DNA of 32,977 nt, from the NCBI GenBank assembly GCA_023485685.1, contig JAMCZK010000040.1:1-32977 (forward strand), in the 5' to 3' direction. A model generated the notes under the pieces. It saw nothing but the letters and a program-made list of their open reading frames with translations. It did no database searches and was not told the DNA's origin. A program made the position numbers and the translations under genes. Within the stretch, counting starts at the first letter, position 1, and each line of letters opens with the position of its first letter. The stretch is from Chloroflexota bacterium. Its GTDB lineage: Bacteria > Chloroflexota > Anaerolineae > Anaerolineales > UBA11579. Of this stretch, positions 1 through 25,279 are shown one piece after another.

Positions 1-1446
1 TGTGGCGACGTGCTCGGCGACAAGTTCGGGGCAGGAGAATTGATCCTGCCCTTTGTGCTGCAATCGGCCGAAGTAATGAAGAAGACCGTCGGCCATCTGG
101 AGAATTATCTCGAGAAGGTCGAGGGCGTGAGCAAAGGCAAGGTGGTGCTCGCCACCGTGTACGGCGACGTGCATGACATCGGGAAAAATCTGGTGAAGAC
201 CATATTGGTGAACAACGGCTACGAAGTCTTCGACCTCGGCAAGCAGGTACCCGCGGAAACCATTATCACCAAAGCGCAAGAAGTGAACGCCACCGCCATC
301 GGATTGAGCGCCTTGTTGGTGAGCACCAGCAAGCAGATGCCACTGATCGTGAACGAATTGCACCGGCGCGGGCTGAACTATCCCGTGCTGATCGGGGGAG
401 CGGCAATCAATCGGCGCTTCGGCTGGCGCATTTTGTATACGGAGGATGGACCGCCATATGCACCGGGTGTCTTTTATTGCCAGGACGCGTTCGAAGGTCT
501 CGAGACGATGGACAAATTGGTCGATGGGCCGAAACACAAAGCGCTGGTCGAAGACATCTTCACCAAGGCGGCGAAAGAGATAGGCCGCGAGGTGAAGCCG
601 CGGCGCACCGCGGCAGTGACCGGGCGCTCGGCTGTGGGTACCGCACCGGATATCCCGACGCCCGACAAATGGGGAACACGCGTGGTGAAGGATATGCCGC
701 TCGAACTGGTCTTCGAGTATTTGTACAAAAACGAACTCTTCCGCCTGTCCTGGGGCGCCAAAAACAAACAGGGCAAAGAATGGGAGCAGATCAAGAAAGA
801 TTTCGAAGCGCGGCTGGCGCGCATGAAGAAAGAAGCGCAGGCCAGCGGCTGGCTGAAGCCGCAGGGCGTGTACGGCTATTGGCCGGCACAAGCCGAAGGC
901 GACAGCCTAGTCGTGTACGATCCCAACACCGTCGGAAACGGCAAGCCGAAGAAGATCACCCAATTCGATTTCCCGCGGCAGCCTAGCGGCGAACTTCTAT
1001 GCTTGGCAGATTACTTTGCCCCCGTAGAGAGCGGGATCATGGACCTGGTCGCCTTGCAGGTGGTAACCGTCGGGCAGGAAGCTACCCGGCGCTTCGAAGA
1101 ATTGCAGGGAAAGAGCGACTACACCGAAGCCTATTTCATGCACGGGCTGGCGGTGCAAACCGCGGAAGCCACCGCGGAATATTTGCACCGCCATATCAAG
1201 CGCGAGTTGGGATTGGCGATCAACCGCGGCAAGCGCTACTCCTGGGGCTACCCGGCCATCCCCGAATTGGAAGACCACACCAAAGTGTTCGAATTGCTGC
1301 CGGCGGAGAAAGAGCTCGGCATGCAGCTCACCGCGGCCTACCAGTTGATCCCGGAGCAATCCACAGCGGCGATCATCGTGCACCACCCCGAGGCCAAGTA
1401 TTACAGCGTAGGCGAGAGCCGCGTCGAGCAGTTGATGAGGGCGTGA
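1..1446 (+). CDS. metH: Cobalamin-dependent methionine synthase, C-terminal part (5' truncated by window edge)
   Basis: The reading frame is open from base 1, so the gene begins outside the window. What is visible is the end of the B12 cap helices, then the cobalamin-binding domain with the DxHxxG motif (DVHDIGKN, the cobalt-ligand His near visible residue 58), the SALLVST segment and the IGGAAINRR loop. After a Pro/Arg-rich linker comes the AdoMet-binding activation domain, recognisable from GYPAIPELEDH, a FELLPAEKELGMQLT-like stretch and the closing HHPEAKYYSVG. Family knowledge: the enzyme moves a methyl group from 5-methyl-THF through cobalamin to homocysteine, and the activation domain repairs oxidised cobalamin with AdoMet. 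The homocysteine and pterin domains would lie upstream and cannot be seen. The fused homocysteine methyltransferase/MTHFR gene at 2502 supports a methionine cluster. Confidence 0.95.
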   Translation, partial: CGDVLGDKFGAGELILPFVLQSAEVMKKTVGHLENYLEKVEGVSKGKVVLATVYGDVHDIGKNLVKTILVNNGYEVFDLGKQVPAETIITKAQEVNATAIGLSALLVSTSKQMPLIVNELHRRGLNYPVLIGGAAINRRFGWRILYTEDGPPYAPGVFYCQDAFEGLETMDKLVDGPKHKALVEDIFTKAAKEIGREVKPRRTAAVTGRSAVGTAPDIPTPDKWGTRVVKDMPLELVFEYLYKNELFRLSWGAKNKQGKEWEQIKKDFEARLARMKKEAQASGWLKPQGVYGYWPAQAEGDSLVVYDPNTVGNGKPKKITQFDFPRQPSGELLCLADYFAPVESGIMDLVALQVVTVGQEATRRFEELQGKSDYTEAYFMHGLAVQTAEATAEYLHRHIKRELGLAINRGKRYSWGYPAIPELEDHTKVFELLPAEKELGMQLTAAYQLIPEQSTAAIIVHHPEAKYYSVGESRVEQLMRA

Positions 1447-1447
1447 A

Positions 1448-1482
1448 GCAGATGACAGTAGGCAGCAAACAGTTGGCAGTCC
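1448..1482. repeat. Heptamer repeat tract, five RCAGNNN units
   Basis: Five consecutive 7-base units of the form RCAGNNN (GCAGATG, ACAGTAG, GCAGCAA, ACAGTTG, GCAGTCC) start 1 base after the metH stop codon. The tract includes the start codon of the following transposase gene and encodes its first residues, MTVGSKQLAV. The period is exact and read directly. The relation to the AGTGANN heptamer tracts elsewhere in the window is by period and setting, not by identical sequence. Confidence 0.6.
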
Positions 1483-2054
1483 AAAAAAGGTCAAAGGAGC
1501 CCGCCCAACCGCAGCGACGTAAGACGCTACGGTTATCAGAATACGATTACTCAAGCCCAGGCGCGTATTTTGTAACGATCTGCGTAAACGGGAAAAGACA
1601 TATTCTCGGAACGATAGTTGGGGAAGAAATTCACCTAAGCAAGGTCGGCGAAATTGTCCAAGAGGTCTGGCACAACTTGTCGAGACATTATGAGAATATC
1701 GAACTCGATGAATTTATCGTGATGCCAAACCATGTCCATGGAATCATATGGATTCTTAGCAATTTACCATCGACAAAATCCGTAGGGGCGGGTCTAAGAC
1801 CCGCCCAATCATCAAGGGAGGGTCTTAGACCCTCCCCTACGAAAATTACCCAACTTAATTTGCCAGAAATCATTAGGGCGTTTAAGTCCTTCTCAGCCCG
1901 TGAAATAAATAAAACCATCAATAGCCCGGATAAATTTTCATGGCAGAGGAGTTATCACGATCATGTCATCCGCAACGATGATGATCTAAACCAGCATCGC
2001 GCGTATATCCAAAACAATCCGCTCAAATGGGCGAAGGACGAGTATTACCTATGA
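1452..2054 (+). CDS. REP-associated tyrosine transposase (RAYT, IS200-like Y1/HUH family)
   Basis: This 200-residue protein has the hallmarks of the Y1_Tnp/RAYT family: an N-terminal YFVTICVNGK strand, the metal-binding HUH motif in MPNHVHGIIW, and a C-terminal helix with the candidate nucleophilic tyrosine in RAYIQNNPLKWA. Family members nick and join single-stranded DNA at REP hairpins. The ATG at 1452 was chosen because it opens the family-like sequence. The frame extends upstream but only through metH coding sequence. A stretch of about 20 residues between the HUH half and the C-terminal half (VGAGLRPAQSSREGLRPSPT) comes from a pair of nested palindromes and looks like an in-frame insertion. 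The gene sits inside the methionine cluster; its stop overlaps the next start as ATGA. It is full length, but activity may be compromised by the insertion. Confidence 0.88.
   Translation: MTVGSKQLAVQKRSKEPAQPQRRKTLRLSEYDYSSPGAYFVTICVNGKRHILGTIVGEEIHLSKVGEIVQEVWHNLSRHYENIELDEFIVMPNHVHGIIWILSNLPSTKSVGAGLRPAQSSREGLRPSPTKITQLNLPEIIRAFKSFSAREINKTINSPDKFSWQRSYHDHVIRNDDDLNQHRAYIQNNPLKWAKDEYYL
1781..1841. repeat. Nested REP-like palindromes inside the transposase gene
   Basis: Two short palindromes (1785-1806, GGGCGGGTCT with AGACCCGCCC; and 1816-1837, GGGAGGGTCT with AGACCCTCCC) are separated by about 9 bases and enclosed by an outer inverted pair CGTAGGGG (1781-1788) and CCCCTACG (1834-1841). The arrangement resembles a REP doublet, which RAYT transposases are known to accompany. 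It lies in frame in the transposase coding sequence and is translated as GLRPA and GLRPS, so it looks like a REP pair inserted into its own mobilising gene. Confidence 0.75.
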
Positions 2055-17674: not shown

Positions 17675-17953
17675 GTGCATTCCTTAACAAGCTCAAACAT
17701 CAATATCACCCAAGATAATGAAGGGCGGGAGTGGCGAGGCTGGGCTCGAGGCCTGCAGCGCTGGGGCTTAGCGGGTCTGGCCTCCACCTTGCTTGAGAGC
17801 GGCGGGGCCTTCACCACACTGGCTGCACAGAGCCTCTACATCGGCCAGCCGCTGCTGGACACTTGGCTGGCGGTCGGCCCACTGGCGCAAATGCTTGAAG
17901 ATCCGCAGCAAACCCAAGCATTTGCCAAAATGTTGCGGGAAGAATCCCAATGA
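17675..17953 (+). CDS. Small protein of unknown function, first gene of the eight-gene operon
   Basis: 92 residues, GTG start, no Shine-Dalgarno, possibly leaderless. A polar head (about 1-25) is followed by an amphipathic/hydrophobic stretch rich in Gly/Ala/Leu (LAGLASTLLESGGAFTTLAAQSLYIGQPLLDTW) and a helical acidic/basic tail ending REESQ. There may be one weak membrane-associated helix. It overlaps the next gene by four bases (ATGA), which argues it is translated. No family recognised. Confidence 0.6.
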   Translation: MHSLTSSNINITQDNEGREWRGWARGLQRWGLAGLASTLLESGGAFTTLAAQSLYIGQPLLDTWLAVGPLAQMLEDPQQTQAFAKMLREESQ

Positions 17954-18693
17954 ATTTATCTGACTTGCAATGGATCGGGTTGTGCCTGGCCCTCATTCTC
18001 CTCTTTTCGGTGTGGGGCAAGAACAACCCACGGCGCGCCTTGCGCTCCATCCCTGCTTTTGTCCAACTGCGCCGCACGATCGAGCTTTCCGTCGAAGACG
18101 GCTCCCGCTTGCAAATCAGTCTGGGCCGCGGTGGCGTACTGGGCCCGGAGTCCGCGGCCGCTTTCGCGGGGCTTACTCTGCTGCGCCAGGTAGCAGAGAT
18201 TGCCGCCGATTCCGACCAGCCACCCATCGCCACCACCGGTGACGGCGCCATCATGCTCCTTGCGCAAGACACCTTGCGCAGCAGTTATCAGCGGCTGGGC
18301 ATCTCGGACCAATATCATTTGCGATTAGCGCAAGCCACTGGGTTGACCCCTTTTTCTTACGCGGCTGGCGCGCTCCCATTCATCCTCGATCGCCGCGTCT
18401 CCGCCTCCGCCTTGGCCGGCAGTTTCGGCGAAGAAGCCGGCTTGTTGACCGCGGCTACCCAACTTTCCGGCGGTTTCAGCCTGGGCGGCAGCGAAAACCT
18501 TAGCGGCCAGTCGATCTTGTTTGCCAGCGCTGACCAGCCTCTGATTGGCGAAGAGATTTTTGCCACCGGCGCTTATATGGACGCAGGCCCAATTCACCAG
18601 GCCAGCCTGCGCGCCCAAGATGTTTTGCGCTGGAGTGTTATCTTGCTACTAATCATTACTTCGCTGCTCCCTTTGTTTGAAGGCTTGCCATGA
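17950..18693 (+). CDS. DUF6754-like membrane protein
   Basis: 247 residues with an N-terminal helix (LQWIGLCLALILLFSVWG), a soluble core and a C-terminal helix (VLRWSVILLLIITSLLPLFEGLP). The core (ELSVEDGSRLQISLGRGGVL, DSDQPPIATTGDGAIMLLAQ, ALAGSFGEEAGLLT, FASADQPLIGEEIFATGAYM) matches my recollection of the DUF6754 domain found mostly in Chloroflexota; its function is unknown. Four-base overlaps (ATGA) on both sides tie it to its neighbours. The assignment to DUF6754 is from memory of the pattern and should be checked by profile search. Confidence 0.6.
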   Translation: MNLSDLQWIGLCLALILLFSVWGKNNPRRALRSIPAFVQLRRTIELSVEDGSRLQISLGRGGVLGPESAAAFAGLTLLRQVAEIAADSDQPPIATTGDGAIMLLAQDTLRSSYQRLGISDQYHLRLAQATGLTPFSYAAGALPFILDRRVSASALAGSFGEEAGLLTAATQLSGGFSLGGSENLSGQSILFASADQPLIGEEIFATGAYMDAGPIHQASLRAQDVLRWSVILLLIITSLLPLFEGLP

Positions 18694-19310
18694 ATCTGCG
18701 CCTGCGCACTCCGTTTTCCGCCGCAGTCGCCATCGCCATTGGGCTCATCGTTCTTGTCAGCTTGCTGTTTCCTGATTTCACGGATTTACGCAACCGCATT
18801 CTAAATTGGGCGATTCTCCTGGCTGCTGTCGCCCTGCTACTAGGTTTTGCAAATCTCTTCCAAGTTCATTTTCAAAAAATGCGCCATGGGGAGAAGCCAG
18901 TCTACAGTTTGATCTTGCTAGCCGGCATGCTGGTGACTTTTATCATCACGTTTTGGGAGGGAAGCCAAGGGTTTACCGCCAGTTGGATTTTCAACAGCAT
19001 CCAACTGCCGATTGAAACGAGTCTCATGGCTGTCCTGGCCATCAGCCTGACCATTGCCGCGGCGCGTTTATTCCAGCAGCGAAAAGATTTGATGAGCATT
19101 GTCTTTTTAGTCACCCTCTTTGTCCTACTGCTTAGCAGCGGGCCTCTGTTTGGCATCGAGCTTCCGCTCTTCACGCGCACGATCGGTCCATACGTGAACA
19201 ACTTTCTCTCTGTGGGCGCTTTACGCGGCCTCTTGATTGGTGTGTCCATTGGCACGTTAGCCACCGGGCTGCGCATCCTACTGGGCGCTGACCGGCCCTA
19301 CGGCGGCTAA
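18690..19310 (+). CDS. Multi-spanning membrane protein of unknown function
   Basis: 206 residues with about six hydrophobic helices (for example FSAAVAIAIGLIVLVSLLF, ILLAAVALLLGFANLF, VYSLILLAGMLVTFIITFW, TSLMAVLAISLTIAAARLF, LMSIVFLVTLFVLLLSSGPL) and short loops; the last helix ends GLRILLGADRPYGG. It is not recognised as a transporter or enzyme. It starts on the stop of the DUF6754-like gene (ATGA), so the two are probably produced together. Confidence 0.7.
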   Translation: MNLRLRTPFSAAVAIAIGLIVLVSLLFPDFTDLRNRILNWAILLAAVALLLGFANLFQVHFQKMRHGEKPVYSLILLAGMLVTFIITFWEGSQGFTASWIFNSIQLPIETSLMAVLAISLTIAAARLFQQRKDLMSIVFLVTLFVLLLSSGPLFGIELPLFTRTIGPYVNNFLSVGALRGLLIGVSIGTLATGLRILLGADRPYGG

Positions 19311-19327
19311 CGGGGCCATTCCTCGCC

Positions 19328-20965
19328 ATGTCCTATCACTCCAACCAAGACCCAGAAAAAAACCTGCCCGATTGGCTCAAGGCTTTACGCAGGCAACAAT
19401 CTAAAGAAACTCCTCAGCCAAAGGGCGCGAAAAGCGAACCCCCCAAGCCTGCCGCGCAAGAACCCGACGAAGAGGAACCTAACTGGCTGCGCGAGATTCG
19501 CGAACGATATGGGCGCCCAGAGACCAAGCAAGAAACGCCCGGAACTGAAGAAACCGAGTCTCCGCTCAGCGATACTCAGCCGATTCCCGCCAGCCGCGCG
19601 GTAGAAACGCGCCCCAAGCCAAGCAAACCCAAGCTGGCGGAGGAACCGCCAGCAGAAGAACCAGTCATAGCTGAACCCCAGGCAGAAACACCTCAGCGCG
19701 ACTTTCCTGATTGGTTGGATGATCTAGGCGAACCTGAGGTAGGAGAGGAAAAGCAAGAGGAAGGAGCGGATACCCACATTCCCGCGTTCCCCCAGGGGTC
19801 CGAGGAGCTCACTCCCGGCGAATTGCCAAGTTGGCTCCAGGCCATCCGCCCTGGCGGTGCTTTCCCGCAGGAAGACACCCGCTCCGGCGAGATGCTGCCT
19901 GGCGTGCAGGAGACCGCCGGGCCACTGGCAGGCCTCAGTGACGTCCTGACTGCGGAGCCAGAAGCCATTCAATCCGTAAAACCACCCATCTACTCAGCCC
20001 GGCTGGAGCTCACCGACAGCCAAAGCCGGCATGTGGCTGCGTTTAAAAAGCTACTCGACGAGGAAGGAAGACCCAAAGAGGACCTGGGCCGCCGGGCCGC
20101 GCTGCCGGCCCGCTTGCTCAATAGCTTCTTAGGCGCTGCCTTGATCCTGGCCGTGCTCCTACCTCTACTGAATCAAAGCCAACTGGTGCCACGGCCGGAA
20201 CCCGATTTCCTACCGGAAAGCGCCGAGGTTTTCAACCGGATCGATACGCTACCCGCTGCAGCCCCCGTGCTGATCGCTTTCGACCTGCAACCCACCTTGT
20301 ATGGAGAGACCAAGGCTGCAGCCTCCGCAGTGTTCGCCCATTTGCTCGACAGGCAAGCCCGACTAGTCTTCATTTCGACCCAGCCCACCGGTCCTGCAGT
20401 CGCTGAACGCCTGCTTCAGGAGGAACTGGCCACGCTACCTGCAATAGCCACAGGCGATTACACGAATCTGGGGTACCTCTCCGGTGGAATGGCCGCTTTG
20501 CGCAGCTTCCTCAGCGACCCGCGCAGCGCCGCGCTCTCGGTGACTGCCTTGGGTATGAATCCGTGGACCAGTTCCACGCTGGAATCGATCAACAGCGTCT
20601 CCAACTTCGCACTCGTGGTTATCGTCAGCAGCAACGCGGATGACGCCCGTATTTGGATCGAGCAGGGCGCGGCCGAGCTGCCCAACGGGCTTATTGCTGT
20701 CACCAGCGCCCAAGCCGCGCCATTGCTGCGTCCTTATCTACTCAGCCAGCCGCAGACATTACAAGGGCTGGTAAGCGGAGTCCAGGGAGCTGTCTTCTAC
20801 GAACGATTGCGATCCCTGGATGGGACAGGGCGAGCGATGTGGGATTCGTATAGTTATGGGTTGGGCGCCATTCTCCTGCTCATCCTTCTGGGTGGTCTAT
20901 ACGGGCGACTGATTCACATGCGACCAGAAAAAGAAACCACTACCGTGAGCAATCGTGCAAATTAG
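19328..20965 (+). CDS. Bitopic membrane protein with four PxWLxxL/I motifs in a disordered N-terminus
   Basis: 545 residues. Residues 1-260 are charged, Pro/Glu-rich and probably disordered, with four short repeats: PDWLKAL (14-20), PNWLREI (51-57), PDWLDDL (127-133) and PSWLQAI (167-173). A helix near 268-286 (LLNSFLGAALILAVLLPLL) crosses the membrane. Residues about 287-515 form an extracytoplasmic alpha/beta-like domain, and a second helix (LGAILLLILLGGLYGRLI, about 517-534) returns to the cytoplasm. The repeats look like docking motifs for a cytoplasmic partner. The function is unknown; the GlmL-like ATPase two genes downstream is a candidate partner by context only. The end overlaps the next gene by 11 bases. 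Confidence 0.75.
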   Translation: MSYHSNQDPEKNLPDWLKALRRQQSKETPQPKGAKSEPPKPAAQEPDEEEPNWLREIRERYGRPETKQETPGTEETESPLSDTQPIPASRAVETRPKPSKPKLAEEPPAEEPVIAEPQAETPQRDFPDWLDDLGEPEVGEEKQEEGADTHIPAFPQGSEELTPGELPSWLQAIRPGGAFPQEDTRSGEMLPGVQETAGPLAGLSDVLTAEPEAIQSVKPPIYSARLELTDSQSRHVAAFKKLLDEEGRPKEDLGRRAALPARLLNSFLGAALILAVLLPLLNQSQLVPRPEPDFLPESAEVFNRIDTLPAAAPVLIAFDLQPTLYGETKAAASAVFAHLLDRQARLVFISTQPTGPAVAERLLQEELATLPAIATGDYTNLGYLSGGMAALRSFLSDPRSAALSVTALGMNPWTSSTLESINSVSNFALVVIVSSNADDARIWIEQGAAELPNGLIAVTSAQAAPLLRPYLLSQPQTLQGLVSGVQGAVFYERLRSLDGTGRAMWDSYSYGLGAILLLILLGGLYGRLIHMRPEKETTTVSNRAN

Positions 20966-21683
20966 TCAAGGGTTCCTGTCTCAAATTGGTGTCTTTTTTG
21001 CCGCGGCGCTGACGCTCATTACGCTTTCGTACGCCTTCCGCGACAATCCGATATTTCGAGCGATACTCCATCTCTTCGTCGGGGTAGCAGCCGGGTACGC
21101 AGCGGCCATCGCCGTGCAAGATGTAGTGCTGCCGCAATTGGTATATCCAATTCTCGATGAGCTTGCGGGCACACCCACTCTCGATATTATTGATTTAGCC
21201 ATTCGCGTCGGACTCACCCTATTGCTGCTGGCGAAACTTTCCCCGCGCACCGCGCGTCTTGGCTCGCCGGTAACTGCGCTGTTGACCGGTGTGGGTGCAG
21301 CGCTCGCCATTGGCGGAGCGGTGCAAGGCACGCTGATCCCACAAATCAGCGCGGCCGCCGGTATCTTCAACGTGGAATCATTTCAGTTGGCGTACCAGGG
21401 CGGTTATTACGGGGAAAGCCTGCAAATTATCTTCGAAGGCAGCTTACTGCTGTTGGCCACGGTGAGCACGCTGGCTTATTTCCATTTTGGGGCCCACAGC
21501 CGCGGCAAACAGGAGCCGCTACGCAATATCTTTGTGGACGCGCTGGCCTGGTTGGGCGCGGTGTTTATTGCCGTCGCTCTAGCTACGTTATTCACCGGTG
21601 TGCTGCAGGCTGCGTTGGGCGCGCTTATCGAGCGCGTTGCCTTCTTGCGCGACGTCGCCAATCTACTGCTCGGGCTGCAATGA
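20955..21683 (+). CDS. Multi-spanning membrane protein of unknown function
   Basis: 242 residues, GTG start inside the end of the previous gene. About seven hydrophobic helices (for example IGVFFAAALTLITLSYAF, ILHLFVGVAAGYAAAIAV, LTGVGAALAIGGAVQGTLI, LLLLATVSTLAYFHFG, WLGAVFIAVALATLFTGVLQ) with a short extracytoplasmic region around residues 58-75. A Lys/Arg-containing loop (HSRGKQEPLR) sits before the last helices. No known family was recognised. Its stop overlaps the GlmL-like gene start (ATGA). Confidence 0.7.
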   Translation: MQISQGFLSQIGVFFAAALTLITLSYAFRDNPIFRAILHLFVGVAAGYAAAIAVQDVVLPQLVYPILDELAGTPTLDIIDLAIRVGLTLLLLAKLSPRTARLGSPVTALLTGVGAALAIGGAVQGTLIPQISAAAGIFNVESFQLAYQGGYYGESLQIIFEGSLLLLATVSTLAYFHFGAHSRGKQEPLRNIFVDALAWLGAVFIAVALATLFTGVLQAALGALIERVAFLRDVANLLLGLQ

Positions 21684-23443
21684 CCAAGTCGAATCCATCT
21701 CAGAGCCGTTCCCTGATTTCGATTGAAGTGGGTAGCGCAAATACGCGTGCCTTATTTTTCGATGCCGTGGAAAGCCGGTATCGGTTCCTGGCTGCCGGGG
21801 AAGCCCCCAGCACCATTGGCGCACCCGCCTTCGATTTGAATCTCGGTGTGCTTGAAGCGCTCGATCAATTGCAGGAATTTACCGGCCGCACTTTTCTGAC
21901 GGACCGCGGCCTGCTGATCTCGCGCGACAACGAAGATGGCGTGGGCGCCAATGCAGTCTGCACCACATTTTCGGGCGGGCCCCCGCTGAAAGTAGTTACC
22001 GTGGGCTTGCTGGGCGAAGTGTCGCTGGAGAGCGTAAACAACCTGGTGCATTCCTCCTATTGTCAGGTGGTGGAGAGCCTTAGTCTAAATGACCGCCGCC
22101 GACCCGAAAGTTTCATCGACGCTATTTGCCAGACTCTTCCTGACTTGGTAGTCGTGGCCGGTGGCACCAACCGCGGCGCCTCACGCTCTGTAGTCCGACT
22201 CGCAAATTACCTGGCTCTGGCGCTTAATCTGATCCCGGAAAAGCAACGCCCACAGGTTTTATTCGTGGGCAACGAAAATTTGCAGGAAGAAATCGACAAC
22301 CTACTCGGCGCGCTAACGAAGCTATATCACAGCCCCAACATCCGCCCGAATCTGGACCAAGAAAGTTTGGGCCCCGCCACGCAAGCCCTCACCTCGATTT
22401 ATTTCGATATTCAATCGCGAAAATTGCATGGCCTGCAAGAGTTGCGTGAATTTTCGGAAGGGCAAATGCTGCCTGCAGCTTCCGCCCTGGGCCGCGTCGT
22501 GCGTTTCCTCAGCACTGTCATCGACTCTCCCAAAGGAGTGCTGGGCATTGATTTGGGGGCGTCCAATACCAGCATAGCCTCCGCGTTCGCCGGAGAACTG
22601 CAATTGCGCGTCTTCCCCGAATTGGGGGTGGGTGGCAGCTTACCAGGCATGATTGCCGAAACCCACTTGCCACAAATCATGCGTTGGCTGCCCTACGATC
22701 TCTCCGACGATTTCGTATTGGACTATCTCCACAACAAACCGCTGTTCGCTCGATCTCTGCCCGCCAGTCCTGAAGAGTTGGCCATCGAGCAGGCTGCCGC
22801 CCGCCAGGTGATGCGCTTAGCCATTGGAAAGAGCCTACCTCTGTTCCCACCGGACGCTATTTATCCACTACCAGGAACCGTGCCATGGTTCGACCGCATC
22901 TTAGTCAGTGGCTCTGCAGTCGCACGCGCCCCGCGCCTGGAGCAAAGTTTGTTGATGATCCTGGATGCCATTCAACCAGTCGGCATCGCCACGGTAATTC
23001 TTGATCAGAACAACCTCGTGAACGCGGTAGGCGCCAGCGCCGAGATCGACCCTTTGCTGGCCGTCCACGTCCTAGAATCCAATTCGTTCATCAACCTAGC
23101 AACGGTGATTTCCCCGGTGGGCAACACCCGCAGCAACGGGAACCCACTACTGCGTATCCAAGTGGTGAGAGATGGCGAAAAGGAAGGGGTGGTCGAAATC
23201 CGGGAAGGCGGGATCACCACCATTCCCTTGCCAATGGGCCGGGTTGCAGATATCTACGTCCAGCCACTGCAAAACGTTAATATCGGCCTGGGCTCCGGCC
23301 GCGGCGGCTGGGTGCGCCGGGTAGTGGGCGGAGTTTTCGGCCTGGTCATCGATGCCCGTGGCAGGCCTATCCAGGTACCCACCTCGCTAACCCGCCGTCA
23401 GGAAATCCTACAAACCTGGCAGGATGCCCTTATTGGAGGTTGA
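21680..23443 (+). CDS. GlmL/MutL-like ASKHA (actin-fold) ATPase, tandem arrangement
   Basis: 587 residues resembling the glutamate mutase L (MutL/GlmL, PF13941-type) family. Two actin-fold halves are visible: phosphate-1-like loops ISIEVGSANTRALFFDAV (about 13-30) and GIDLGASNTSIASAF (about 288-302), with adenosine-loop-like VVVAGGTNRGA (about 157) and ILVSGSAVARAP (about 406). The C-terminal part (500-587) is beta-rich with GLGSGRGGWVRRVVGG. In classical settings GlmL accompanies cobalamin-dependent glutamate mutase subunits. No mutase genes are present here, and it sits instead among membrane-protein genes. An ATP-driven assembly or repair role is therefore an inference. The start shares ATGA with the previous gene. 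Confidence 0.75.
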   Translation: MTKSNPSQSRSLISIEVGSANTRALFFDAVESRYRFLAAGEAPSTIGAPAFDLNLGVLEALDQLQEFTGRTFLTDRGLLISRDNEDGVGANAVCTTFSGGPPLKVVTVGLLGEVSLESVNNLVHSSYCQVVESLSLNDRRRPESFIDAICQTLPDLVVVAGGTNRGASRSVVRLANYLALALNLIPEKQRPQVLFVGNENLQEEIDNLLGALTKLYHSPNIRPNLDQESLGPATQALTSIYFDIQSRKLHGLQELREFSEGQMLPAASALGRVVRFLSTVIDSPKGVLGIDLGASNTSIASAFAGELQLRVFPELGVGGSLPGMIAETHLPQIMRWLPYDLSDDFVLDYLHNKPLFARSLPASPEELAIEQAAARQVMRLAIGKSLPLFPPDAIYPLPGTVPWFDRILVSGSAVARAPRLEQSLLMILDAIQPVGIATVILDQNNLVNAVGASAEIDPLLAVHVLESNSFINLATVISPVGNTRSNGNPLLRIQVVRDGEKEGVVEIREGGITTIPLPMGRVADIYVQPLQNVNIGLGSGRGGWVRRVVGGVFGLVIDARGRPIQVPTSLTRRQEILQTWQDALIGG

Positions 23444-23452
23444 GCCTCTTAG

Positions 23453-24508
23453 ATGATCGCTCCCGTTAGCTACATCCAGCCGCTTACTACTCTGCGCCGC
23501 CAGCGCGTGCTACCCGTGGAAGGCCAAGTGCTAGTCAAGCTCGGTGAGACCGTGCATTCGAGCAACCCGGTGGCTCGTGCCAGCCTGGAGAGTAGGCATC
23601 TCATCTTGGACGCAGCCCGCGCCCTCGGCTTGCCATCCGAAAGAGCCAAGAAACTCATCCAGCGCAGCGTGGGCGAACAAGTGGAGGCGGGTGGCATCAT
23701 TGCCGGCCGCCGCGGAGCCGGGGCCCGCCAATTGCGTGCGCCTGCTTCCGGACAGATTGCCGCTATTAGTGAATCACAGATCTTGTTGCAGGTCAGCGAT
23801 GAATCCTCATTGCTTCAGGCTCGTGTGCCTGGCCTTGTAATTGACATCGACCCCGGCCGCGGCGTGACCATTGAATGTGTCTGTGCCTGGGCCCAGGGCC
23901 TCTGGGGTAACGGTCGCCTGGGCGACGGCATTCTGCACCTGGTAGGCGACAAACCCGAACAAACCCTCACGGCCGACCAGATTGATATGAGCTTGCGCGG
24001 GGCCGTCCTGGTCGCAGGCATCTGCGAACACCGTCAAGCCTTGGAATTGGCTGCCCAGGTACCCATACGCGGCCTGGTGCTGGGCAGCCTGACTACCAGG
24101 CTATTGCCGGTGGCCCTCAAGCAGGCTTATCCTATTGTGCTGACTGAAGGCTTCGGCAACACCCCAATGAATGCCGATGCCTTCAAATTGCTCAGCAATC
24201 ACAATGGTGATCAGGCGACTATCAATGCCCAGCTTTCCAACCCGCTCAACGGAGACCGGCCTGAAGTGATCGTTCCAATCCGAGACTCCGGAAAGCCACC
24301 GCAAGCTATTCCCATGCAGAGTTTCCGCGTTGGGCAGGTGGTGCGCGTAATGGCCGGGTCGGACCGAGGTCTGATTGGCGAAATCACGTCACTATTGCCC
24401 CCCTCGACCTTCTATCCGAGCGGATTGCATGCCCCAGGCGCGTCGGTGAGGTCACAGGGCCGAGATGAGGTGGAATATCCGCTGGCAAACCTGGAACTTC
24501 TAGGATAA
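23453..24508 (+). CDS. Barrel-sandwich-hybrid and KOW-like domain protein, unknown function
   Basis: 351 residues. The N-terminal portion (GQVLVKLGETVHSSNPVARA, residues about 24-43, and LRAPASGQIAAIS near 93) has the look of a lipoyl/biotinyl-type barrel-sandwich hybrid, as in efflux adaptor and RnfC N-termini, without a lipoylated Lys context. The middle (about 140-250) is alpha/beta with AVLVAGICEHRQALELA and RGLVLGSLTTRLLPVALK. The C-terminus (FRVGQVVRVMAGSDRGLIGEI, about 284-304) matches a KOW motif. No membrane helix or signal peptide is seen, so it is probably cytoplasmic. It has GGAGGT inside the end of the GlmL-like gene as a ribosome site. It may be an adaptor of that protein, by context only. 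Confidence 0.6.
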   Translation: MIAPVSYIQPLTTLRRQRVLPVEGQVLVKLGETVHSSNPVARASLESRHLILDAARALGLPSERAKKLIQRSVGEQVEAGGIIAGRRGAGARQLRAPASGQIAAISESQILLQVSDESSLLQARVPGLVIDIDPGRGVTIECVCAWAQGLWGNGRLGDGILHLVGDKPEQTLTADQIDMSLRGAVLVAGICEHRQALELAAQVPIRGLVLGSLTTRLLPVALKQAYPIVLTEGFGNTPMNADAFKLLSNHNGDQATINAQLSNPLNGDRPEVIVPIRDSGKPPQAIPMQSFRVGQVVRVMAGSDRGLIGEITSLLPPSTFYPSGLHAPGASVRSQGRDEVEYPLANLELLG

Positions 24509-24522
24509 AGTAACGCGCTGCT

Positions 24523-25083
24523 ATGCTAGACGACACCGATTTAGATCTCCCCGAGGAGCCGAAGCCAGAACCGCCCAGGCGCTCAGGCAATCGCTTCCTT
24601 GTGGTGGCCGGAACCCTGGGGGGCATCCTGGTGCTGGCTATCATGGCCATCGTAATATATGCCCTCGTGATTCTGCCGGAGCAGCAGGCGGATGAGCCCG
24701 GACCTGCCGCCGCACAGCTGACCGAAACTGCATTGACTCGCGCGATACAAGCGACCAACACGGCTACTTCTACTCGGACATTCACCCCAACTCCCCAGCC
24801 GCCCACTAACACGCCCAGGCCAACCAATACGCCTCTACTCACATCTACGACCGACCCTGCAACCGCCACGGTAAACGCCTTACTCACCCAAGCGGCTCTG
24901 GCGCAAACGCAGGCGGTAACTCCAACCGGCTCATCACCAACACCCGGCACCCCCACTGCGACACCAAGTGCGCTGCCCGACAGCGGCTTCGCCGATGATG
25001 TCGGCGCCCCCGGCTTGCTGGCCGCGGCTGCGATCCTGCTGGTAGTTGTCCTCCTAGCGCGCAGGCTTAGAAACGCAGATTAA
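24523..25083 (+). CDS. Thr/Pro-rich membrane protein with a C-terminal LPDSG sorting-like signal
   Basis: 186 residues: an acidic cytoplasmic head, a transmembrane helix (about 27-50, LVVAGTLGGILVLAIMAIVI), a long Thr/Pro/Ala stalk (about 65-148) and a tripartite C-terminus: LPDSG (151-155), a hydrophobic helix (GLLAAAAILLVVVLLA) and a basic tail (RRLRNAD). This resembles an LPxTG-type sortase signal, with Ser in place of Thr. Sortase recognition is an inference and no sortase is encoded in the window. It is the last gene of the operon, 14 bases after the previous stop. Confidence 0.75.
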   Translation: MLDDTDLDLPEEPKPEPPRRSGNRFLVVAGTLGGILVLAIMAIVIYALVILPEQQADEPGPAAAQLTETALTRAIQATNTATSTRTFTPTPQPPTNTPRPTNTPLLTSTTDPATATVNALLTQAALAQTQAVTPTGSSPTPGTPTATPSALPDSGFADDVGAPGLLAAAAILLVVVLLARRLRNAD

Positions 25084-25255: not shown

Positions 25256-25279
25256 AAAAGCGCTTGCAGCGCTTTTTTT
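25256..25279. terminator. Bidirectional terminator between the eight-gene operon and coaBC
   Basis: An 8-bp perfect stem AAAAGCGC (25256-25263) / GCGCTTTT (25269-25276), loop TTGCA, followed by a total of seven T residues on the plus strand, and with an A-rich left arm for the opposite direction. Convergent genes end on both sides. The gap upstream (25084-25255) shows no gene. Confidence 0.9.

Follow-up and report, generated by a model that had tools for sequence, protein, structure and literature searches.

A conserved Chloroflexota operon joins a GlmL-family protein and its partner to a membrane module, with a possible role in the cell envelope

We have analyzed an eight-gene operon from a bacterium of the order Anaerolineales (phylum Chloroflexota). 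It lies in a contig of 32,977 nucleotides (JAMCZK010000040.1), the whole of which is here called the window. That the families encoded by its genes, designated g1 to g8 in order of transcription, form an undescribed system is strongly supported by the retention of their gene order in other genomes. The GlmL/MutL-family protein g6 and the three-domain protein g7 are the deepest core of this system. The host draft genome measures 1.71 Mb and is 76% complete; the best named record for g6 (74% identity) comes from a metagenome-assembled genome also assigned to Anaerolineales.

The features are summarized in Table 1. The eight open reading frames (ORFs) all lie on the plus strand between positions 17675 and 25083, where the initial annotation had placed them, and its description of a tightly coupled operon holds: neighbouring genes overlap by 4 to 11 bases (4 at g1/g2, g2/g3 and g5/g6; 11 at g4/g5) or are separated by 9 to 17 (g3/g4, 17; g6/g7, 9; g7/g8, 14). 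In comparison with a close relative (locus L034), third-position divergence (0.54-0.66) exceeds second-position divergence (0.12-0.24) in all eight genes, the pattern expected of coding sequence. Only two of the families of the window operon gave above-cut-off matches to family models.

Table 1. Features of the operon and its downstream flank (TM, transmembrane-like segment).
Feature	Position	Strand	Description	Basis
g1	17675..17953	+	small protein of 92 residues, no TM, no known family	conserved first gene
g2	17950..18693	+	DUF6754 (PF20539): TM, domain of ~200 residues, TM	86.2 bits (cut-off 27)
g3	18690..19310	+	six TM, no family above cut-off	hydropathy
g4	19328..20965	+	acidic/proline-rich N-terminal tail with 4 PxWL motifs, TM, predicted external Rossmann-like alpha/beta domain, TM	alignment, motif statistics, AlphaFold2
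g5	20955..21683	+	polytopic membrane protein, six TM	crude hydropathy count
g6	21680..23443	+	GlmL/MutL-family (PF13941) ATPase-like protein	Pfam profile match
g7	23453..24508	+	barrel-sandwich hybrid (~1-120), RraA-like swivelling beta/beta/alpha domain (~120-270), KOW (~290-350)	AlphaFold2 model, Foldseek
g8	24523..25083	+	N-terminal TM, Thr/Pro-rich stalk, C-terminal LPDSG, hydrophobic stretch, RR	motif, hydropathy
Intrinsic-terminator-like stem	25256-25276	both	9 pairs, between g8 and a convergent coaBC-like gene

A protein search with g6 found matches in 57 of 61 genomes (its own and 60 others of the same order). Of the 56 other matched genomes, 53 (all but G019, G023 and G054) were used for a comparison of neighbourhoods, which took in 54 loci; the eight families were mapped onto these by iterated profiles. 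Gene pairs were counted only at loci with at least 900 bases of contig room (L080, L002 and L003 excluded); in the relatives, some gene starts come from automatic calls and may be placed too early. L080 (G060:C1:1244426-1245031) is a second, distant GlmL-like gene outside the operon in a genome of the same order. From g1-g2 through to g7-g8, each gene is directly followed by the next in 46/46, 48/48, 47/48, 52/52, 52/52, 52/52 and 46/48 cases, the three misses overall being at L081, L077 and L079. Even the small protein g1 has a homologue at 46 of the 54 loci.

The gene order extends well beyond the order. A DUF6754 profile search of 301 genomes of the phylum matched 67 genomes carrying 18 family labels (66 above cut-off) and none of 14 control genomes; g6 is also present in 66 of the 67. 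Twenty of these loci were hand-picked for family coverage, and are thus not a random draw; wherever contig room allowed a count, adjacency was complete for g2-g3 (20/20), g3-g4 (20/20), g4-g5 (15/15) and g5-g6 (14/14). A g1 homologue was found at 17 of the 20 loci, next to g2 in 15 of 17, and g7 directly follows g6 in 6 of 10. At the four loci where it does not (L105, L106, L108 and L111), g7 lies elsewhere in the genome, in two on the same contig as g6 (G222 and G206); G166 is a further genome in which the two genes are far apart on one contig. The initial annotation had named co-occurrence in other genomes as the point on which its proposal of an undescribed system would turn, and the families do co-occur, g1 to g8 across the order and g2 to g6 at the loci chosen from across the phylum.

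The pair g6 and g7 is more widespread than DUF6754. Among the 301 phylum genomes, profile matches to g6 were found in 183 and to g7 in 170; the two coincide in 168, while 15 have only g6, 2 only g7 and 116 neither, counts that ignore kinship and in which weak g6 matches may include ordinary GlmL. Twenty further loci were retrieved with g6, hand-picked (not at random) across families without a DUF6754 match. Nineteen of them have no g2, g3 or g5, and g7 stands directly after g6 in all 19. Thus a core supplemented by a membrane module describes the operon better than a single complex in which all eight parts are obligate. In 11 of these 19 compact loci a g4-like protein is encoded immediately upstream of g6. 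CxxC pairs are found in 10 of these 11 neighbours and PxWL motifs in 9 (7-15 motifs each in the proteins of loci L118-L122), while TM-like segments number none in seven and one, near the protein end, in four. Judged by these shared motifs, the tail of g4 in the full operon and the upstream protein of the compact loci appear to be variants of a single adaptor.

A tree built from 86 g6 proteins groups its rows largely by family, and 4 changes are needed to place the full and compact labels on it, as against 17 in shuffles. This fits a mostly vertical inheritance of g6, although the tree was made by a quick method, excludes pieces shorter than 400 residues, leaves 27 of 83 inner branches unresolved and has several long branches.

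These distributions bear directly on an alternative that we consider unlikely, namely that there is no single machine, and that a housekeeping set of membrane genes shares no more than a transcript with a separate g6-g7 unit. The absence of g2, g3 and g5 from most loci retrieved with g6 would be expected under it, as would the unlinking of g7 from g6 in some families. It accounts less well for the position of g6 after g5 at all 14 of the chosen DUF6754 loci with room and for the presence of g6 in all but one of the DUF6754 genomes; moreover, the tail of g4 has its counterpart in the zinc-ribbon/PxWL protein next to many compact g6-g7 pairs.

It is this tail that would join the two parts of the operon. 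The PxWL repeats noted at the outset in g4 number four in the window protein, and among 28 g4 proteins the tails contain 166 PxW[LMIVF] motifs (mean 5.7 and maximum 14 in shuffles), with at least one motif in 25. The motif consensus in g4 is EE(L/V)PDWLxx(L/I)R; the motifs of the compact-locus adaptors read (E/D)(L/V)P(D/E)WLxx(L/I)R. At least two CxxC pairs are found in 17 of the 28 relatives and zinc-ribbon Pfam families match up to 15; the window g4 has no zinc ribbon. PxWL motifs also occur in the long tails of 2 of 33 g6 proteins; at L106 and L109, two loci of a single family, the C-terminus of g6 extends into a long tail that contains two such motifs.

A DNA-pattern scan of three genomes located the motif in two of them in a soluble protein as well, where it lies between tetratricopeptide repeat (TPR) blocks. 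Both proteins are from genomes of the same order: the shorter, at L169:2870-6037 (minus strand; 1056 residues by ORF length), has 10 P[DESNG]W[LMIVF] motifs in the stretch that separates its two TPR blocks, and the longer, at L168:1862-5197 (minus strand; 1112 residues by ORF length), has 7. Either one reader domain recognises these proteins as a further client or the motif has another partner there.

Although g4 had been described as bitopic, hydropathy and the AlphaFold2 model both give it two TM helices, at residues 263-281 and 511-529, so that both of its ends are probably cytoplasmic. Residues 259-545 were modelled as TM helix, alpha/beta domain and TM helix with a predicted local distance difference test score (pLDDT) of 91.5 and a predicted template modelling score (pTM) of 0.86. 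Foldseek found no convincing PDB relative for this C-terminal part: six matches had an expected value (E) of 0.001 or less, all to TtuA or 'sulfurtransferase', with a TM-score of ~0.26. Homology between g2 and g4 was considered and set aside (hhalign probability 6%). The assignment of g2 to DUF6754 is confirmed well above the Pfam gathering score, and its domain is predicted to be cytoplasmic from the distribution of positive charges; no PDB relative was found by profile at E<=1. The six helices ascribed to g3 were recovered, while g5, described as having seven, also shows six. Profile searches gave no relative of solved structure for either g3 or g5.

The second core protein, g7, was modelled with good confidence (pLDDT 90.3, pTM 0.71). 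Both the barrel-sandwich and the KOW fold of the initial annotation are seen in this model, whose domain boundaries were set by eye, together with an RraA-like middle domain that had been overlooked. Two Pfam matches fall below their cut-offs, KOW at 22.2 bits (22.3) and RnfC_N at 16.3 (25.6); the model nonetheless points to the presence of KOW and RnfC_N-type folds. Foldseek matched NusG (E 5e-6, TM-score 0.15; the only match below 0.001), RnfC (8ahx_C, E 1.9e-3, TM-score 0.17), RraA (1q5x, E 4.6e-3, TM-score 0.54 over the target and 0.27 over the query) and numerous KOW domains. A profile search of the PDB also returned KOWs, those of Spt5 and uL24, ranked below a lysozyme repeat chain. That top line (summed E 4e-7) consists of three stretches, each with E of about 1-2, that have only a short QGxWGNG-like stretch in common, and was taken as chance. 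Among 30 g7 relatives, RnfC_N matches 7 and NQRA_N 3 at E<=0.01. None of the invariant or nearly invariant columns of the g7 alignment holds a cysteine.

The KOW domain raises the alternative of a membrane-bound complex associated with RNA or the ribosome, in which g7 and the zinc ribbons of g4 would contact the ribosome, RNA polymerase or RNA. Many matches to the g7 C-terminus are indeed KOWs of NusG, Spt5, uL24, eS4 and the RNA-binding OapB, and the g4 zinc ribbons are weakly similar to eL40 (E 5e-4). However, KOW/SH3 domains and zinc ribbons are generic folds and no Rfam family matches the window at gathering scores, and we regard this alternative as decidedly improbable.

The family assignment of g6 is firmer. 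It matches PF13941 with 180.5 bits (cut-off 27) over residues 13-467, and all 33 aligned members match at E<=0.01; some 120 residues extend beyond the end of the profile. The GlmL-like label of the initial annotation is thus upheld as family membership. The actin fold that it also proposed is implied by this membership, in a clan that we take to be actin-like; profile searches gave no relative of solved structure for g6. The conserved stretches IEVGS at 15, GG at 161-162 and GVLGIDLGA at 286 are presumably the nucleotide-site motifs of the actin superfamily.

The same family assignment suggests another role: as GlmL does for glutamate mutase, g6 could serve as chaperone in the reactivation of an enzyme that depends on B12 or radicals, with the other genes as client or accessories. 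In addition to its PF13941 score, the NCBIfam GlmL equivalog model matches all 33 members at E<=0.1. The window protein, however, scores far below the cut-off of that model (80.8 bits against 475) and aligns only over residues 13-308, and no B12 enzyme family matches any of the eight products. The glutamate mutase family PF06368 is above cut-off in none of 20 genomes (2 weak matches), and g6 is therefore unlikely, on the basis of gene content, to be an accessory protein of glutamate mutase. The chaperone explanation as a whole seems to us very improbable. Hardly credible is a redox or ion-translocating complex related to Rnf/Nqr, in which g7 would be the RnfC/NqrA-like subunit and g3 and g5 the membrane subunits: the Foldseek match to RnfC and the RnfC_N and NQRA_N matches of some g7 relatives speak for it, but the likeness is confined to the barrel-sandwich fold, g7 has no conserved cysteine, and the window g3 and g5 match no Rnf/Nqr family while their profiles match no solved structure.

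Two lines of evidence connect the system with the cell envelope. The first is g8, for which an LPDSG tail had been reported; this has the form of a sortase-type sorting signal, and 44 of 53 homologues carry LPx[TSA]G within their C-terminal 48 residues. Three of the other nine look truncated and the remainder carry variants such as LADTG or VPDTG. The sortase family PF04203 is above cut-off in all eight genomes searched, and by its sorting signal and the sortase genes g8 qualifies as a predicted sortase substrate. It has two TM-like segments. Resembling a membrane protein at its N-terminal end and a sortase substrate at the other, g8 could tether the membrane to the wall.

The second line is a comparison with MurG. 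According to the available text of PMC10608941, D. mccartyi is without the division and cell wall cluster, the loss is wider in Dehalococcoidia and the genes are retained in basal lineages; the g6-g7 core was therefore compared with MurG. With a limit of E<1e-15, which is our own and by which five weaker matches were scored absent, MurG occurs in 164 of the 168 genomes with g6 and g7 and in 97 of the 133 without the pair (36 have no MurG). Conversely, the core is present in 4 of the 40 genomes without a good MurG match (G086, G097, G282 and G352, with completeness of 80-95%). This pattern is suggestive of an envelope role, though it is confounded by clade and genome reduction.

Our tentative interpretation, possible although by no means assured, is that the operon encodes an undescribed Chloroflexota machine in which an ATPase core (g6 and g7) acts on a membrane module through the PxWL tail, in the service of envelope biogenesis or integrity. 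The protein g6 would bind and hydrolyse ATP and would form with g7 a complex that docks on the PxWL tail of g4; its nucleotide cycle might then assemble, remodel or gate a membrane complex of g2, g3, g4 and g5. That such a single membrane complex is powered by the ATPase is supported only indirectly. In the full form of the system g4 combines the adaptor-type tail with a two-TM anchor that flanks the predicted external alpha/beta domain, and g2, g3, g5 and mostly g1 accompany it. In Anaerolineales, sortase may attach g8, and with it the assembly, to the cell wall. The process served is likely to be cell-envelope biogenesis or integrity. A more specific picture, of which we are slightly less confident, is that of an unrecognised envelope machine in which the GlmL-family ATPase and its barrel-sandwich/RraA/KOW partner would work, by way of a dedicated and repeated PxWL recruitment motif also present in a TPR hub protein, on a membrane complex of g1 to g5; in Anaerolineales a sortase-anchored stalk would hold this complex to the peptidoglycan.

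A number of observations weigh against this interpretation. The core occurs without the membrane genes in nearly all loci retrieved with g6, and no g4-like neighbour was seen at 8 of the 19 compact loci, one of which (L125) starts at a contig end. At the twentieth locus, L134, from the same class as the window, g3, g4, g5 and g6 are present with no g2, g7 or PxWL; the g7 profile search gave no match anywhere in that genome, the only clear break in the g6-g7 pairing among these 20 loci. At two loci of family f31 (L113 and L115) g4 is tail-less and g6-g7 are kept nonetheless. The occurrence of PxWL in an unrelated TPR protein means that the motif may bind something other than g6 or g7. The first motif of the window g6 reads IEVGS where the consensus carries D, and outside the class g8 was found at L098 only. 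As for MurG, its model matches all 14 control genomes, archaea included (9 above cut-off), and 99 of the 301 phylum genomes pass the cut-off. The 97 MurG-positive genomes without the pair also count against a tight link, and the association, uncorrected for phylogeny, may largely reflect wall-less, genome-reduced lineages.

Seven to eight families held in one gene order across the order, with g2 to g6 kept at loci from different parts of the phylum and g6-g7 present in 168 of the 301 phylum genomes sampled, indicate an important function. Such genes are probably annotated as 'glutamate mutase L' and 'hypothetical protein'. If our interpretation is correct, a GlmL-family protein would here, for the first time to our knowledge, have a task other than the upkeep of B12 enzymes. 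Pull-downs and mutants could start from the PxWL motif, from g6 and g7 as a pair, or from the wall signal of g8.

The flanks of the operon are less informative. The terminator-like stem downstream of g8 (Table 1) comes from a scan that was near chance overall (11 sites, against 8.6 in shuffles with a standard deviation of 2.8), and a scan for sigma-70-type promoters found no match (3.1 in shuffles). Most recurring flanking genes are restricted to relatives near the window. At 13 loci the operon has a phosphoglucomutase/phosphoglucosamine-mutase-like gene close by, convergent at ten (L046, L048, L049, L052, L055, L057, L058, L065, L067 and L070) and upstream on the same strand at three (L113-L115); the label was checked with Pfam on the L114 copy only, and the association was judged too weak for use. 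Far upstream, the part of the ORF at 999-2054 (plus strand) that comes after the first gene, positions ~1447-2054, resembles what we take to be a REP-associated transposase-type protein, with the stretches GAYFVTICVNG at 1560 and VMPNHVHGIIW at 1719.

None of the known pathways compared here appears, from the sequences, to fit the operon. An anti-phage defence system was rejected, as PADLOC gave no family for any of the eight proteins at E<=0.01. Mobile or viral spread of g6 and g7 is likewise unsupported: pattern scans of viral contigs found no relative of either, g7 had no match in a plasmid collection, and g6 matched seven plasmid records with an identity of 22-27%, of which five bear the name GlmL or glutamate mutase L and two are nameless. 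Within the literature library searched, no publication names DUF6754 or PF13941, and no description of the operon was recognised, including in the available text of PMC10608941 and PMC4682846.

The resemblances to known systems are therefore partial. The protein g2 is a clear member of DUF6754, a family for which the literature searched offers no function to compare. With Rnf/Nqr and RraA the likeness is one of fold, in the first and middle domains of g7 respectively; no further Rnf/Nqr features were seen in the operon, and RraA is a stand-alone protein. Like sortase-anchored LPxTG proteins, g8 ends in an LPxTG-type motif, a hydrophobic stretch and arginines, but it differs in that a TM preceded by charged residues stands at its N-terminus and that it is no more than a short stalk. 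The match of g6 to the GlmL/MutL family is far above the Pfam cut-off, while its score below the equivalog cut-off, its extra C-terminal region and its nearly constant partner g7 set it apart from GlmL. Finally, although no PilM, PilN, PilO or FtsA model is among the family matches of the operon, its architecture, a GlmL-type ATPase with a membrane protein that would carry a cytoplasmic short-motif tail, is like that of PilM-PilN-PilO and FtsA-FtsN. In these an actin-fold ATPase works on the cytoplasmic tail of its membrane-bound partner, and they serve, with no claim of family membership, as our working analogy for g6 and g4.

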